Of a stretch of 64,000 nt of DNA, positions 54,520 to 59,196 are shown piece by piece. Under the pieces are notes generated by a model. The model searched no databases, was not told the origin of the DNA, and was given only the letters and a program-made list of their open reading frames with translations. The DNA is from Actinomycetes bacterium. Its GTDB lineage: Bacteria; Actinomycetota; Thermoleophilia; Solirubrobacterales; 70-9. The stretch covers positions 311,501-375,500 of the forward strand of contig BOKP01000003.1 in the NCBI GenBank assembly GCA_016861045.1. Reading direction: 5' to 3'. The first letter of the stretch is position 1, and every line of letters starts with the position of its first letter. Made by a program: the position numbers and the translations under genes.

Positions 54520-55869
54520 TCAGCCCGGCAGGAGCGAGCGCAGGTCGCCCTCGAAGCCCGGATAGCTGACCCGGGCGCAGCCGAAATCGCGCACGGTGAC
54601 CCCCTCGCGCGAGGCGAGGCCGGCGACGGCGCCCAGCATCGCCAGGCGATGGTCGCCCCGGGCGTCGATCTCGCCGCCGCGGATGCCGCCGGTGCCCCGC
54701 ACCGCGAACCCGTCCTCGAGCGGCTCGGCGTCGCCGCCGATGGCGTTGATCGCGTCGACCGCCCCGGCGATCCGGTCGGACTCCTTGTGGCGGAGCTCGG
54801 CGGCGCCGCCGACGTGCGTCGTCCCCTCGGCGAAGCACCCGAGCAGGCCGACGAGCGGCAGCTCGTCGATCGTCGCCGGGACCTCGGCGGCGACGACGCG
54901 CGCCGCCGCGAGCCCGCCGTGGCGCGCCCGCACCGAGCCGACCGGCTCGCCGCCCTCGCGCCCCTCCTCGACGACCTCGATATCGGCGCCCATCCGGTTC
55001 AGGACCCCGAGCAGCCCGATCCGCGTCGGGTTCAGGCCGACCCCGGCGACGGTCACGTCGCCCCCCGGGACGAGCAGGGCGGCGGCGAGGTGGAAGGCGG
55101 CCGAGGAGAGATCGCCCGGCACCCGCATCGGCGGCAGCGCGATCCCCTCCGCCGGCTCGACCGCGATCGTCGACCGGACCGGATCGCCGGGGAGGCTCGG
55201 CCGCTCCCGCTCGACGCGGACGGCGGCGCCGGCGGCGCGGAGCATCCGCTCGCTGTGGTCGCGCGACGCCGCCGGCTCACGTACCGTCGTCCGGCCCTCC
55301 GCGAGCAGGCCCGCGAGCAGCAGGCACGACTTGACCTGGGCGGACGCGACGGGCATCTCGTGATGGATAGCGTGCAGGCGACCTCCGTCGATCGCAAGCG
55401 GCGGCCGCCCTCCGGGCGCCGTCTCGACCGCCGCCCCCATCTCCCGCAGCGGCTCGGCGATGCGGGCCATCGGCCGCATCCGGATCGACCCGTCGCCGTC
55501 GAGCCGGAAGCCGCGACCCTCCTGGCCGGCTAGGAGGCCGGCAAGGAGGCGGATCAGCGTGCCGGCGTTGCCGACGTCGATCGCGCCCACCGGCTCGGCG
55601 GCGCCGGCGATCCCGAAGCCCCCGATGCCGACATCGAGGGCGCCGCCGCGATCGCCGGGGCGCACCTCGACCGCCGCCCCGAGCGCTTCGATCGCCGACA
55701 GCGTGCTGCGGGTGTCGGCCGAGTCGAGGTAGCCCGAGACGCGGGTCGACCCGTCGCCGAACGCGCCGAGCAGGGCGGCGCGATGCGAGATCGACTTGTC
55801 GGGCGGCGCCTCGAGCCTGCCGGCAGGCGGCCCGACCGCGGCGAAGTGCGCGTCGACCCGCCCCCGCAT
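54520..55869 (-). CDS. aroA: 3-phosphoshikimate 1-carboxyvinyltransferase (EPSP synthase)
   Basis: A 449-residue shikimate-pathway enzyme, step six. DKSISHRAALLGAFGDGSTR near the N-terminus is the substrate motif. DVGNAGTLIRLLAGLLA and the C-terminal RHKESDRIAGAVDAINAIGG with DHRLAMLGAVAG are intact. It overlaps tyrA by 1 nt and precedes the cmk-der pair. The aromatic operon order is aroF-tyrA-aroA. Confidence 0.96.
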   Translation of the reverse strand: MRGRVDAHFAAVGPPAGRLEAPPDKSISHRAALLGAFGDGSTRVSGYLDSADTRSTLSAIEALGAAVEVRPGDRGGALDVGIGGFGIAGAAEPVGAIDVGNAGTLIRLLAGLLAGQEGRGFRLDGDGSIRMRPMARIAEPLREMGAAVETAPGGRPPLAIDGGRLHAIHHEMPVASAQVKSCLLLAGLLAEGRTTVREPAASRDHSERMLRAAGAAVRVERERPSLPGDPVRSTIAVEPAEGIALPPMRVPGDLSSAAFHLAAALLVPGGDVTVAGVGLNPTRIGLLGVLNRMGADIEVVEEGREGGEPVGSVRARHGGLAAARVVAAEVPATIDELPLVGLLGCFAEGTTHVGGAAELRHKESDRIAGAVDAINAIGGDAEPLEDGFAVRGTGGIRGGEIDARGDHRLAMLGAVAGLASREGVTVRDFGCARVSYPGFEGDLRSLLPG

Positions 55870-57011
55870 CAGCCGCCTCCGCTCTCGGCGACCGGCGCGA
55901 CCTCGTGGCCGAGGCCGGCGACCACCTCGGCGGCCTGCACGGCCTCCTCGACGCCGGCGATCCAGAGCGAGATCGCGCCCGTGCGCCGATCCGCCGCCGG
56001 GAACAGCGACATGTCCTCGATGTTGACCCCGGCGCGACCGAGCGCCAGGGCGATCTCGGCGACGGTCCCGGGGCGGTTCTCGACCGCGATCCGGAGCTCG
56101 ACGAGCGGCGCCGTCGCCAGCTCCGCCTCGAGCATCCGGCGGCGGTCGTCGCGGGCCGATCGCTGCCAGGATTGGATCCGCTCGCGATCGCCGCCGCGGA
56201 TCAGCTCCGCCGCCGACCGCAGGCGCTCGACCGCCTCGTCGATCTCGGCCGCGACCGCAGCGCGATTGGAGCTGAAGATGTCCGCCCAGACCGCCGGGTT
56301 CGCGCCGGCCACCCGGGTCGCGTCGCGGAAGCTGCGGCCGACCTCGGGCCGGCGCTCCGCGCCGGCGGGCAGCGAGCCGGCGGCGATCCCGGCGAGGACG
56401 TTGGCGAGAACGTGCGGAAGGTGGCTGATCGTCGCCATCTCGAGATCGTGGGCGGCGGGGTCGAGAGCCATCGGACGCGCCCCGATCCCCGCCAGCACGC
56501 CGTGGAGGCGGTCGAACAGCACGCCCTGCGAGCGCTCGGTCGGCGTCAGGTACCAGCGCACGCCCTCGAACAGGTCCTGGCGCGCGCCCTCGACGCCGGC
56601 CGTCTCGGCCCCCGCGAGCGGGTGACCGCCGATGAAGCGGTCGGCCGACGGATCCGCGGCGATCGCCTCGACGAGCGCCTGCTTGGTGGAGCCGACGTCG
56701 CTGACCACCGTCGCCGGCGGCGACTCCCGCAGGGCCGCGGCGACGAGGCCCGGCAGCGCCGCGACCGGGGCGGCGCAGAAGACGGCGTCGGCGTCGGCGA
56801 CGGCGTCGGCGATCGAGACCGCGGCCCGGTCGAGGACTCCGAGCGCGACGGCTCGATCGCGGTTGGCGCCGTCGGGGTCGTAGCCGACGACCTCGGCTCC
56901 GAGCCGGTGTCGGGCGGCGAGGCCGATCGAGCCACCGATCAGGCCGACGCCGAGGACCGCTACCCGGGGCGGATGGTCAGGGCTCTCGGCCACGCGCCGA
57001 TCATCGCTCAA
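55869..57011 (-). CDS. tyrA: Prephenate dehydrogenase with ACT domain
   Basis: A 380-residue enzyme of tyrosine synthesis. The NAD-binding motif AVLGVGLIGGSIGLAARHRLG is followed by DVGSTKQALVEAI and FIGGHPLAGAE, the GH(P)LAG signature, then a helical dimerisation region. The last 80 residues match an ACT domain (LVELRIAVENRPGTVAEIAL), suggesting tyrosine feedback. The TTG start at 57011 overlaps the aroF stop (TTGA); GTG at 56993 is an alternative. Confidence 0.93.
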   Translation of the reverse strand: MSDDRRVAESPDHPPRVAVLGVGLIGGSIGLAARHRLGAEVVGYDPDGANRDRAVALGVLDRAAVSIADAVADADAVFCAAPVAALPGLVAAALRESPPATVVSDVGSTKQALVEAIAADPSADRFIGGHPLAGAETAGVEGARQDLFEGVRWYLTPTERSQGVLFDRLHGVLAGIGARPMALDPAAHDLEMATISHLPHVLANVLAGIAAGSLPAGAERRPEVGRSFRDATRVAGANPAVWADIFSSNRAAVAAEIDEAVERLRSAAELIRGGDRERIQSWQRSARDDRRRMLEAELATAPLVELRIAVENRPGTVAEIALALGRAGVNIEDMSLFPAADRRTGAISLWIAGVEEAVQAAEVVAGLGHEVAPVAESGGG

Positions 57012-57853
57012 ACCGGGCCCCCGGGGATGGCGGGCGCCCGTCCTCCGATCGCCGCCGCCCGCCGGACGCGATCGGCGTAGGCGCCGAACCGGTCGGCGGC
57101 CAGCGCCTGCGGGCCGTCGCAGATCGCGTTCTCGGGGTCGGGGTGGACCTCGACGATGATCCCGTCGGCGCCCGCCGCCGCGGCGGCCAGCGACATCGGC
57201 TCGACCCAGTCGCGGCGGCCCGGCGCGTGGCTCGGGTCGACGAGCACGGGCAGGCTCGATCGCTCCTGGAGCGCCGGGACCGCGAGCAGGTCGAGCGTGA
57301 ACCGGTAGGCGGTCTCGTGGGTGCGGATCCCCCGCTCGCACAGCATCACCCGCTCGTTGCCCTCCTTGAGCACGTACTCGGAGGCGAGCAGCAGCTCGTC
57401 GAGGGTGGCGGCGAGCCCGCGCTTGAGCAGGACCGCGCGGTCGCCGCGCCCGAGCTCGGTGAGCAGCGGGTAGTTCTGCATGTTGCGGGCGCCGACCTGG
57501 ATCACGTCGGCGACGGCGGCCACGTCCTCGAGGTCGCGGACATCGAGCAGCTCGGTGACCACCGGCAACCCGGTTCGCCGCTTCGCCTCGGCGAGGATCT
57601 CGAGCCCCTCGCGTCCGAGCCCCTGGAACGAGTAGGGAGAGCTCCGCGGCTTGTAGGCACCGCCGCGCAGCATCGACGCGCCGCCGGCCGCCACCGCGTC
57701 CGCCACCGCCTCCGTCTGCTCACGGCTCTCGACCGTGCAGGGGCCGGCGATCAGCGTGAAGCCGGCGCCGACGTGACGACCGGCGACGTCGAATCCGCGC
57801 GCGGGGTTCCCGGCCGGCCCGGCGGGGATCTGGTCGAGGGCTGTCGTGTTCAT
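57008..57853 (-). CDS. aroF: 3-deoxy-7-phosphoheptulonate synthase
   Basis: A 281-residue DAHP synthase of the KDO8P-like, short form, the first step of aromatic synthesis. FTLIAGPCTVESREQTEAVA, GGAYKPRSSPYSFQGLG, QVGARNMQNY, LLKRGLAATLDELLLA, CERGIRTHE and VDPSHAPGRRD cover the metal and PEP ligands (Cys, His, Glu, Asp). No N-terminal ACT or ferredoxin domain is fused. The ATG at 57853 has AAAGG about 9 nt upstream. Control may depend on the leader ORF 103 nt upstream. Confidence 0.95.
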   Translation of the reverse strand: MNTTALDQIPAGPAGNPARGFDVAGRHVGAGFTLIAGPCTVESREQTEAVADAVAAGGASMLRGGAYKPRSSPYSFQGLGREGLEILAEAKRRTGLPVVTELLDVRDLEDVAAVADVIQVGARNMQNYPLLTELGRGDRAVLLKRGLAATLDELLLASEYVLKEGNERVMLCERGIRTHETAYRFTLDLLAVPALQERSSLPVLVDPSHAPGRRDWVEPMSLAAAAAGADGIIVEVHPDPENAICDGPQALAADRFGAYADRVRRAAAIGGRAPAIPGGPV

Positions 57854-57873
57854 GCTGCTGCCTTTCGGATCGG

Positions 57874-57950
57874 GGCCGGTCGCGACGGCCGGCGGAGCTG
57901 GCTCGGGGGTCGATGCTCGGGGTTGCGACCGGTGTTACGACGCCGGCCGG
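57874..57950 (-). promoter_or_regulatory. Alternative stem-loops upstream of aroF
   Basis: In the minus-strand RNA the segment CGCCGGCC (57887-57894) can pair with the upstream CCGGCCGGCG (57941-57950) or with the downstream CCGGCC (57874-57879), but not both. The downstream stem is GGCC/GGCC with a GTC-type inner pair over 57874-57890. There is no U-run after it. This fits an attenuator-like switch; folding energies were not computed. Confidence 0.4.
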
Positions 57951-57955
57951 GACGC

Positions 57956-58057
57956 CTAGCTAAATCGCCAGGAGCGATACGAGAGGCGGGCGCGACGACG
58001 GGCGCCGGTGGGCGCGGGGATCCCGGAGACGGGTGCGGTCGTCGTCGGCGTGCGCAT
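57956..58057 (-). CDS. Putative aromatic leader peptide
   Basis: A 33-codon ORF between the hisC-type gene and aroF. It ends LSYRSWRFS, so Tyr, Trp and Phe codons lie within six codons just before the stop. They are TAT, TGG and TTT, with CGA between; TAT and TTT are rare in this GC-rich genome, where TAC and TTC dominate. Only 24 non-aromatic residues precede. A promoter (-35 TTGCGG at 58089-58094, 18-nt spacer, -10 TACAAA at 58065-58070) ends 7 nt before the ATG, so it is leaderless itself. The role in attenuation of the aroF operon is an inference. Confidence 0.55.
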   Translation of the reverse strand: MRTPTTTAPVSGIPAPTGARRRARLSYRSWRFS

Positions 58058-58060
58058 TCC

Positions 58061-58074
58061 GTGCTTTGTAGCAC
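58061..58074. promoter_or_regulatory. Inverted repeat over the leader promoter -10
   Basis: GTGCT-TTGT-AGCAC, a 5-bp inverted repeat with a 4-nt spacer, covers the TACAAA -10 box. It may be an operator or part of the promoter. Confidence 0.35.
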
Positions 58075-58094
58075 GGCGGGGCGGCGGGCCGCAA
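58065..58094 (-). promoter_or_regulatory. Promoter of the aromatic leader
   Basis: On the minus strand, TTGCGG (58089-58094), an 18-nt spacer and TACAAA (58065-58070) lie just after the hisC-type stop (58105). Transcription would start near the ATG at 58057. Confidence 0.55.
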
Positions 58095-58104
58095 GCGCCG
58101 AGGA

Positions 58105-59196
58105 TCAGAGCAGCTCGGCGAGCGCATCGAGGAAGCGGCGGTTCTCGGCCGCGGTCCCGTAGGTGACGCGGACGTGCCCGGGGCCCCCGAGCGGCGTCCC
58201 GGCGCGGACGATCACGCCGCGGCGGCCCAGGCCCTCGACGATCTCCCCCTCGTCGCGATCGCCGAGGTCGATCCATGAGAAGTTCGCCTCGGTGTCCGCG
58301 GTCCGCAGGCCGAGGCCGCGGAGCTCCTCCTCGACGGCGACCCGCTCGGCGATCGTCCGCTCGACCCGGGAATCGACGTCGTCGCCGTGCAGGAGCGCCT
58401 CGGCACCGGCAGCCTGGGCGAGCAGGTTGACGCTGAACGGCTGGCGGACCGCGTCGACCGCGCCCCGGAAGCGGGCCGAGCCGAGGGCGTAGCCGCAGCG
58501 CAGGCCGGCGAGGCCGTAGACCTTGCTGAACGTTCGCAACAGCACCAGGTTCGGATGCTCGGCGAGCAGGTCGACGGTGGCGTCGGGATGGTCGAGGACC
58601 TGCATCTCCACGTAGGCCTCGTCGACGACCACGGTGACGTGGTCGGGCACGCGATCGAGGAACGCCGCGATCGCGTCCGGCGGCAGGCAGGTCCCGGTCG
58701 GGTTGTTGGGGTTGCAGACGACGACGAGCCGGGTCGCCGCGGTCACCTCGGTCGCCATCGCGTCGAGGTCGTGGCGGTAGGCATCGTCGAGCGGCACGCG
58801 GATCTCGCGGGCGCCGGCGAGCGGCGCGAGCTGCGGATACATCGAGAACGACGGCCACGCGTAGAGGATCTCGGCGCCCGGCTCGCAGAGCGCGAGCGCC
58901 GCGGCGAGCAGGATCTCGCAGGAGCCGTTGGCGACCGCGATCCCGCCAGGCTCGACCTCGAAGCGGTCGGCGAGGCGGCGCCGCAGCCGCGCCGCGTGCT
59001 GGTCCGGATACCGGTTCGACCCGATCGCCGCCTCGCGAATCGCCTCGAGCACGGCCGGGTGCGGCCCCCAGGGGGACTCGTTCGATGCCAGCTTGATCAC
59101 GTCCGAGGCCTCGTAGGTGCGGCGGGCGCGGTCGATGTCCATGCCGCCCTCGTAGTGCGGCAGCGCCTCGAGCTTCTTCGCGAACCGGACGGTCAT
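58105..59196 (-). CDS. hisC: HisC-family aromatic/histidinol-phosphate aminotransferase
   Basis: A 363-residue PLP enzyme, fold type I. The Schiff-base Lys225 lies in LRTFSKVYGLAGLRCG; KLASNESPWGPHP, CNPNNPTGTC and VDEAYVEM are typical of HisC. The same family includes aromatic aminotransferases that make Phe and Tyr. No other his gene is in the window, while aroH lies 10 nt upstream and the aroF-tyrA-aroA genes downstream, so an aromatic role is likely, as in some other bacteria. Confidence 0.92.
   Translation of the reverse strand: MTVRFAKKLEALPHYEGGMDIDRARRTYEASDVIKLASNESPWGPHPAVLEAIREAAIGSNRYPDQHAARLRRRLADRFEVEPGGIAVANGSCEILLAAALALCEPGAEILYAWPSFSMYPQLAPLAGAREIRVPLDDAYRHDLDAMATEVTAATRLVVVCNPNNPTGTCLPPDAIAAFLDRVPDHVTVVVDEAYVEMQVLDHPDATVDLLAEHPNLVLLRTFSKVYGLAGLRCGYALGSARFRGAVDAVRQPFSVNLLAQAAGAEALLHGDDVDSRVERTIAERVAVEEELRGLGLRTADTEANFSWIDLGDRDEGEIVEGLGRRGVIVRAGTPLGGPGHVRVTYGTAAENRRFLDALAELL

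Follow-up and report, generated by a model that had tools for sequence, protein, structure and literature searches.

The DAHP synthase gene aroF (cg1129) of Corynebacterium glutamicum is preceded by a leader peptide, aroR, that carries Phe-Tyr-Phe codons (PMC4046766; PMC11802643). Ribosome stalling is its reported mode of action (PMC4046766; PMC11802643 citing Neshat 2014), and aroR is reported to respond, at the level of transcription (PMC11802643), to Phe and not to Tyr. It is the one described mixed-aromatic leader of a DAHP synthase gene in the literature that we searched. Here we analyse a leader open reading frame (ORF) between hisC and aroF in a stretch of 64,000 nucleotides, referred to below as the window, from an actinobacterium of the order Solirubrobacterales (contig BOKP01000003.1, positions 311,501 to 375,500). 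Both systems place a mixed-aromatic leader upstream of DAHP synthase. However, the reported aroR motif is without Trp while the family of the window carries Tyr, Trp and Phe, and in place of Phe-Tyr-Phe it has a Tyr-rich tail followed by Trp-Arg-Phe, a fixed CGA-UUU-nnn-UAG-GC and a stem, P1, that starts in the stop codon. The literature that we searched contains no description of a three-aromatic form and none of Thermoleophilia or 'YWRF' leaders.

A second point of comparison is the actinobacterial LEU element upstream of leuA, in which the Leu sensor codons pair with the leuA Shine-Dalgarno (SD) sequence (PMC1262725). Like the LEU element, our locus has a leader ORF without a U-tract, and its run of sensor codons is predicted to pair with the SD of a biosynthetic gene, as a base stem (P0) around an inner structure. 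The LEU element differs in reading Leu, in preceding leuA and in having a conserved pseudoknot, whereas here we find aromatic codons, a DAHP synthase gene, the plain stem P1 and P0 registers that vary. RNAalifold returned P1 only, and no LEU-type pseudoknot was found in an analysis that did not search pseudoknots systematically. The trp, pheA and ilv attenuators also hold end-product sensor codons in a short leader ORF, but the classical examples have an intrinsic terminator with a U-tract, as do the actinobacterial trp attenuators (PMC1262725), and none was found here.

The reading that we favour, with somewhat more confidence than doubt, is that the element is a ribosome-mediated attenuator of the aroF-tyrA-aroA operon with a translational output. 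Its basis is comparative: the leader, its promoter, the three aromatics and P1 are conserved in relatives, and there is an excess of SD-to-leader pairing. As in other leader-peptide attenuators, a conserved short ORF, predicted to be translated, places end-product codons upstream of a biosynthetic gene, and a conserved RNA structure lies beside it, since P1 shows covariation and begins within the stop codon. An initial annotation of the window, made from its sequence alone, had proposed an attenuator here; comparison supports this proposal well, and it appears right in kind and wrong in structural detail.

Conservation of the leader, its codons and its promoter

Relatives were first collected by AroF similarity, and a common leader end was seen upstream of aroF. 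Allowing at most one mismatch, the 18-mer TGGCGATTTANCTAGGCG occurs in 72 of the 299 class genomes, each time as a single copy, and all 72 belong to the order of the window, which contributes about 100 of the genomes sampled; the reversed pattern gave one match only in the same search. Mismatches are confined to the final G and the last sense codon, and the search itself therefore does not account for the constancy of the other positions. Where the 18-mer was missing from a genome of the order, we searched again via its own DAHP synthase, and nine of these genomes have the variants CCG-, TAT- or CTG-CGATTT-nnn-TAGGCG, or TGGCGATTTCGCTAGGC[AC], from which it follows that the Trp before the core is replaceable (by Pro, Tyr or Leu). 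In total we retained 94 distinct leaders, at the same place in most of the genomes sampled from the order. All have CGATTT-nnn-TAGGC without exception, and the last leader residue is variable (S, I, T, R or M). The 33-codon aromatic ORF first reported between a hisC-type gene and aroF is thus confirmed, and the absence of such an ORF from close relatives, named at the outset as grounds for abandoning it, was not what we observed. The leader is missing from some genera of the order, and genomes of the same class outside the order have no convincing aromatic leader upstream of AroF.

Two copies outside the 94 depart from the core. L196 (G005, 1440-1731) is a decayed leader ending CRCWRFV-stop, with TTC for TTT and no Tyr, which lies directly before tyrA with no adjacent aroF. 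L185 (about 1308, reverse strand) reads TGGCGATTTCGC-CAG-GCG, its UAG having become CAG, such that the leader would extend about nine codons into P1. A contig titled 'Chlamydiae bacterium' (L009) has a Solirubrobacterales leader and AroF, and is probably mis-binned or mislabelled.

Short ORFs are plentiful at the 74% GC of the window. That this one is a functionless chance product has nevertheless a negligible probability, because the 18-mer, the core, P1 and the three aromatics are conserved in relatives. The enzyme encoded after the leader is a DAHP synthase of either type I-beta (MMIVMK...) or type I-alpha (RDQRIERVVPL...), as assigned by reading the sequences. Since the leader survives this change of type, the comparison suggests that it is the control that is conserved and not the particular protein.

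In nine genes of the window, TTT accounts for 0 of 57 Phe codons, TAT for 4 of 43 Tyr codons, CGA for 12 of 273 Arg codons and TAG for 1 of 9 stops, which bears out the rarity ascribed earlier to TAT and TTT. Across 85 leaders, Tyr makes up 21.6% of the last eight codons before the core versus 1.6% further upstream, Phe 6.3% versus 2.2% and Trp 5.4% versus 0.9%. The idea of one leader carrying all three aromatics ahead of a DAHP synthase gene holds among the relatives, as Tyr, Trp and Phe are all present within the last 13 residues in 93 of the 94 leaders (near-equal totals of 161 Tyr, 143 Trp and 150 Phe). Aromatic positions shift between leaders while the composition holds, as expected of a sensor and not of a protein. 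The initial annotation went too far in stating that known attenuators sense one amino acid, a claim contradicted by aroR and by the ilv leaders, which carry several branched-chain codons (PMC1262725).

The fixed nucleotides of CGATTT and TAGGC could instead mark the place where a regulator, protein or RNA, binds, with the reading frame secondary. We consider this quite improbable: the sole free triplet is exactly one codon, the upstream aromatics are in frame at varying positions, the start codon is set behind a conserved promoter, and P1 covaries as RNA.

TGNTACAA, or a close variant of it, forms an extended -10 in 53 leaders, with the in-frame start codon most often 8-11 nucleotides past the octamer and with predicted leaders of 21-46 codons, mostly 28-33, behind it. 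The -35 and -10 that had been assigned to the leader ORF are both present in the window, the -10 and its spacing to the start being conserved in relatives. Because the extended -10 sits just before the start codon, the leader mRNA is probably leaderless, its start codon coinciding with the transcription start or lying no more than a few bases from it. The C. glutamicum aroR transcript is reportedly leaderless too. Other actinobacterial attenuators have likewise been described as leaderless (PMC8079986).

The stem P1 and the stop codon

From 52 leaders, RNAalifold gave one helix of ten pairs, running from the G of UAG to GCCGrrCGCC about 30-110 nucleotides later. In the alignment, 98.1% of the P1 cells are paired and there are 21 two-sided changes versus 7.6 in shuffled controls, while slid versions of the helix drop to 35-50%. 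A looser check, in which the type of the 5' arm predicts that of the 3' arm, found both variable positions paired in 74 of 80 cases versus 50 expected (maximum 62). Folding of the stretch between the stop codon and the P1 3' arm is much stronger than in shuffled sequences (z -2.9), and the covariance model matches the altered P1 of the window with an E value of 1.2e-6. A search of Rfam 15 for a T-box or other family gave no relevant match.

Aligning the interval upstream of aroF, as the initial annotation had recommended, thus produced conserved codons and a covarying stem, but not the pair of stems that it had drawn. Both of those stems exist in the window (57941-57948/57887-57894 and 57925-57932/57876-57883), yet they are not conserved as a mutually exclusive pair, and the second was rejected, being absent from the congeners L092 and L093. 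Pairing of the P1 3' arm downstream once P1 is blocked was also rejected, with no excess over shuffles (0.439 versus 0.458).

The stop codon is fixed as UAG because only UAG ends in G, which is needed for the P1 pair. This bears on the alternative of an arrest peptide. TnaC arrests the ribosome with tryptophan, and in both cases conserved C-terminal residues lie beside the stop codon. By analogy, an abundance of an aromatic amino acid or its tRNA would lead W-R-F-x-stop to detain the ribosome at UAG, in keeping with the near-invariant R-F-x-stop and the fixed UAG. We regard this as improbable, however, as the UAG is accounted for by the P1 base pair, the Trp is replaceable and, in further distinction from TnaC, CGA and TTT stay constant where synonymous codons would encode an identical peptide, a constraint that the peptide by itself does not impose, while the last residue is free.

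Pairing with the aroF Shine-Dalgarno and the proposed switch

In the window, GCCTCTCGTATCG and CGATCCGAAAGGC pair with a probability mostly above 0.9, except at one C/A mismatch and the outermost pair, and the congener L093 has a perfect P0 of 9 base pairs at the SD, CGCCTTTCG/CGAAAGGCG. The leader-SD energy was -14.96 kcal/mol for matched genomes versus -13.39 kcal/mol for mismatched ones (permutation standard deviation 0.37), and the helix score 17.6 versus 15.6 (standard deviation 0.35); control segments tested for SD complementarity showed no excess. In ribosome-free folds, pairing of the SD with the leader was 0.413, against 0.276 +- 0.021 for shuffled leaders, and in a non-redundant subset of 35 I-beta sequences it was 0.422 against 0.308 +- 0.034. 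Set-wide, the excess is about 3-6 standard deviations above shuffles, and the window's pairing is 0.76. A location-free scan for the leader's best partner gave no peak at the SD, with GC-rich stretches elsewhere scoring higher, and therefore the SD pairing rests on the matched and shuffled controls. Judged from the sequences, P0 is a well supported tendency, not proven per genome.

Folding was combined with a masked ribosome. The window's SD is unpaired at 0.24 without a ribosome and at 0.48 with a ribosome masked on Tyr; with the ribosome at the stop codon, SD openness is 0.41. Opening of the SD by P1 alone is real and small (0.074 versus 0.016 shuffled). Geometry and this in-silico masking suggest that P1 formation would depend on ribosome position.

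The elements are nested, in the order sensor codons (P0 5' arm), CGAUUUnnnUA, P1 5' arm, P1 3' arm and SD (P0 3' arm), and formation of P1 would draw the two P0 arms together. In the proposed switch, the first transcribed base would belong to the leader start codon or adjoin it, and the leader would be translated. When Tyr-tRNA or Trp-tRNA is scarce, the translating ribosome would stall on the sensor codons and mask the P0 arm, leaving P1 free to form and the SD open, such that AroF would be made. When aromatics are ample, it would reach the UAG and occupy the P1 5' arm or depart, upon which P0 would pair with the SD and switch aroF off. This matches the logic of the LEU element (PMC1262725). 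Within the scheme we infer that the ribosome stalls, in which direction expression responds, that the output is translational and why CGA-UUU is fixed at the nucleotide level.

Several points weigh against such a switch. The register of P0 differs between genera, and in some genomes the pairing falls short of significance; for the window, a comparison with shuffles alone gives no more than z = -0.4. LEU-like pairing of sensor codons with the SD was found for the type I-beta relatives and the window's genus, but the excess is not significant in the I-alpha group, where start codons are uncertain. In part, the complementarity follows from composition, pyrimidine-rich aromatic codons facing a purine-rich SD. 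A translational output leaves the invariant CGA-UUU unexplained, and under the model a ribosome halted at TTT for want of Phe would block part of P1. Finally, TANNNT occurs 28-40 nucleotides before the aroF ATG in 37 of 53 I-beta relatives versus 9 expected, which suggests a second, unregulated promoter between P1 and aroF that would bypass the leader in these relatives; read from the sequence, it was not seen in the window's genus.

The initial annotation had guessed that the output was either Rho-dependent or translational, a reasonable alternative of which we favour the second and keep the first as a rival. P1 and the hairpin that follows it might set Rho, or a polymerase responding to a tail-less hairpin, to stop before aroF. 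C is more frequent than G in the leader and near P1, GC-rich hairpins shortly past P1 are commoner than in shuffles (20 versus 6.7), and aroR acts on aroF transcription (PMC11802643). Three sequences from another class (L200, L242 and L244) have, by eye, a similar leader followed by a terminator-like hairpin and a short U stretch. The region after P1, however, has no strong fold signal (z -0.27), and the noted absence of a U-tract after the last stem stands: a U-run follows the post-P1 hairpin in only 1 of 62, and the intrinsic terminator of a classical transcription attenuator is thus lacking. Transcription attenuation would also leave the SD-leader pairing without a reason. Overall, we think this rival unlikely, though it deserves serious weight, and translational attenuation remains the reading that we prefer.

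The operon and the wider occurrence of mixed-aromatic leaders

Pfam searches of the neighbouring genes gave chorismate mutase, aminotransferase, DAHP synthase, prephenate dehydrogenase with an ACT domain, and EPSP synthase. The true start of tyrA is probably near 56990.

Table 1. Positions of the leader elements and neighbouring genes in the window.
Feature	Positions	Strand	Remarks
Leader ORF, 33 codons, MRTPTTTAPVSGIPAPTGARRRARLSYRSWRFS then stop	57956-58057	minus	Between hisC and aroF; conserved in 94 sequences
Conserved element TGG CGA TTT AGC TAG GCG (Trp-Arg-Phe-x-stop and P1 start)	57953-57970	minus	Fixed core CGATTT-nnn-TAGGC
-35-like hexamer TTGCGG	58089-58094	minus	18 nucleotides before the -10 (spacer includes TGC); position weakly conserved
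Extended -10 TGC-TACAAA (TGCTACAAA)	58065-58073	minus	-10 and start-codon distance conserved; in most relatives the leader starts 7-10 nucleotides later
P0 5' arm, sensor codons Leu-Ser-Tyr-Arg, GCCTCTCGTATCG	57975-57987	minus	Predicted pairing with aroF SD region
P0 3' arm, CGATCCGAAAGGC	57860-57872	minus	Includes aroF SD GAAAGG (57861-57866)
P1 5' arm, from G of UAG stop (57956)	57941-57956	minus	Altered, interrupted form in the window; defined in relatives
P1 3' arm (approximate)	57882-57894	minus	Covariance-model alignment
hisC	58105-59196		Pfam aminotransferase I/II; one flank of leader ORF
aroF, DAHP synthase, controlled gene	57008-57853	minus	Pfam DAHP_synth_1; other flank of leader ORF
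tyrA, prephenate dehydrogenase with C-terminal ACT domain	55869-57341	minus	Pfam; listed ORF
aroA, EPSP synthase	54520-55869	minus	Pfam; after tyrA

AroF of the window's genus (here and in L092 and L093) begins MNTTALDQIPAG and is without the N-terminal extension of about 80 residues (MMIVMKEGAT..) present in relatives outside the genus. In such DAHP synthases this extension is a known regulatory domain. The genus of the window may have lost allosteric control of AroF and retained the leader.

Searching 396 genomes of the phylum with the covariance model gave strong matches only in the order, the weak ones being mostly at noise level except for the L200 group, and a degenerate 17-mer search of the phylum gave mostly noise. 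The L200 group (L200, L242-L244) is a second family, from another class, in which leaders that look leaderless, for example VNIGVRASYWRFIKAPGG, immediately precede a type I-alpha DAHP synthase. Its leaders (L200 at 1500-1620) end YWRFI(E/K/V)APG and show a P1-like pairing, GGCTCCGGG/CCCGGAGCC, then the terminator-like hairpin and short U stretch. In a survey of 90 DAHP synthase upstream regions from this class, short ORFs containing an eight-residue stretch with four or more aromatics were found on 35 sense versus 0 antisense strands. Among these upstream regions (L246-L335), mixed-aromatic short ORFs such as RRYPYFAQAPGG, FWRFYGYRP, AFWFWYGDGP and RWFGYFTGSG precede many actinobacterial DAHP synthase genes, apparently as a class-wide and mostly undescribed regulator. 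Aromatic-rich short ORFs also lie upstream of AroF on Clostridia-like, planctomycete and Nitrospirota contigs (L041, L049, L058, L071, L073, L044 and L052), where AT-rich controls are less clean.

Tentatively, and at slightly less than even confidence, we propose an undescribed RNA family in which one ORF reports three aromatics, the sensor codons serve as anti-Shine-Dalgarno, the stop codon lies in the organising stem and the fixed CGA-UUU times the ribosome. If this is true, the family would be part of a larger and largely overlooked group of mixed-aromatic leaders of DAHP synthase in Actinobacteria and perhaps other phyla. The near-fixed CGA-UUU-nnn-UAG-GC is a sharp handle on codon speed and termination timing in attenuation. 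Synthesis of every aromatic amino acid begins with DAHP synthase, and in E. coli the pathway is governed by separate isoenzymes and repressors. In contrast, one RNA sensing Tyr, Trp and Phe together would be an OR gate for the whole pathway.
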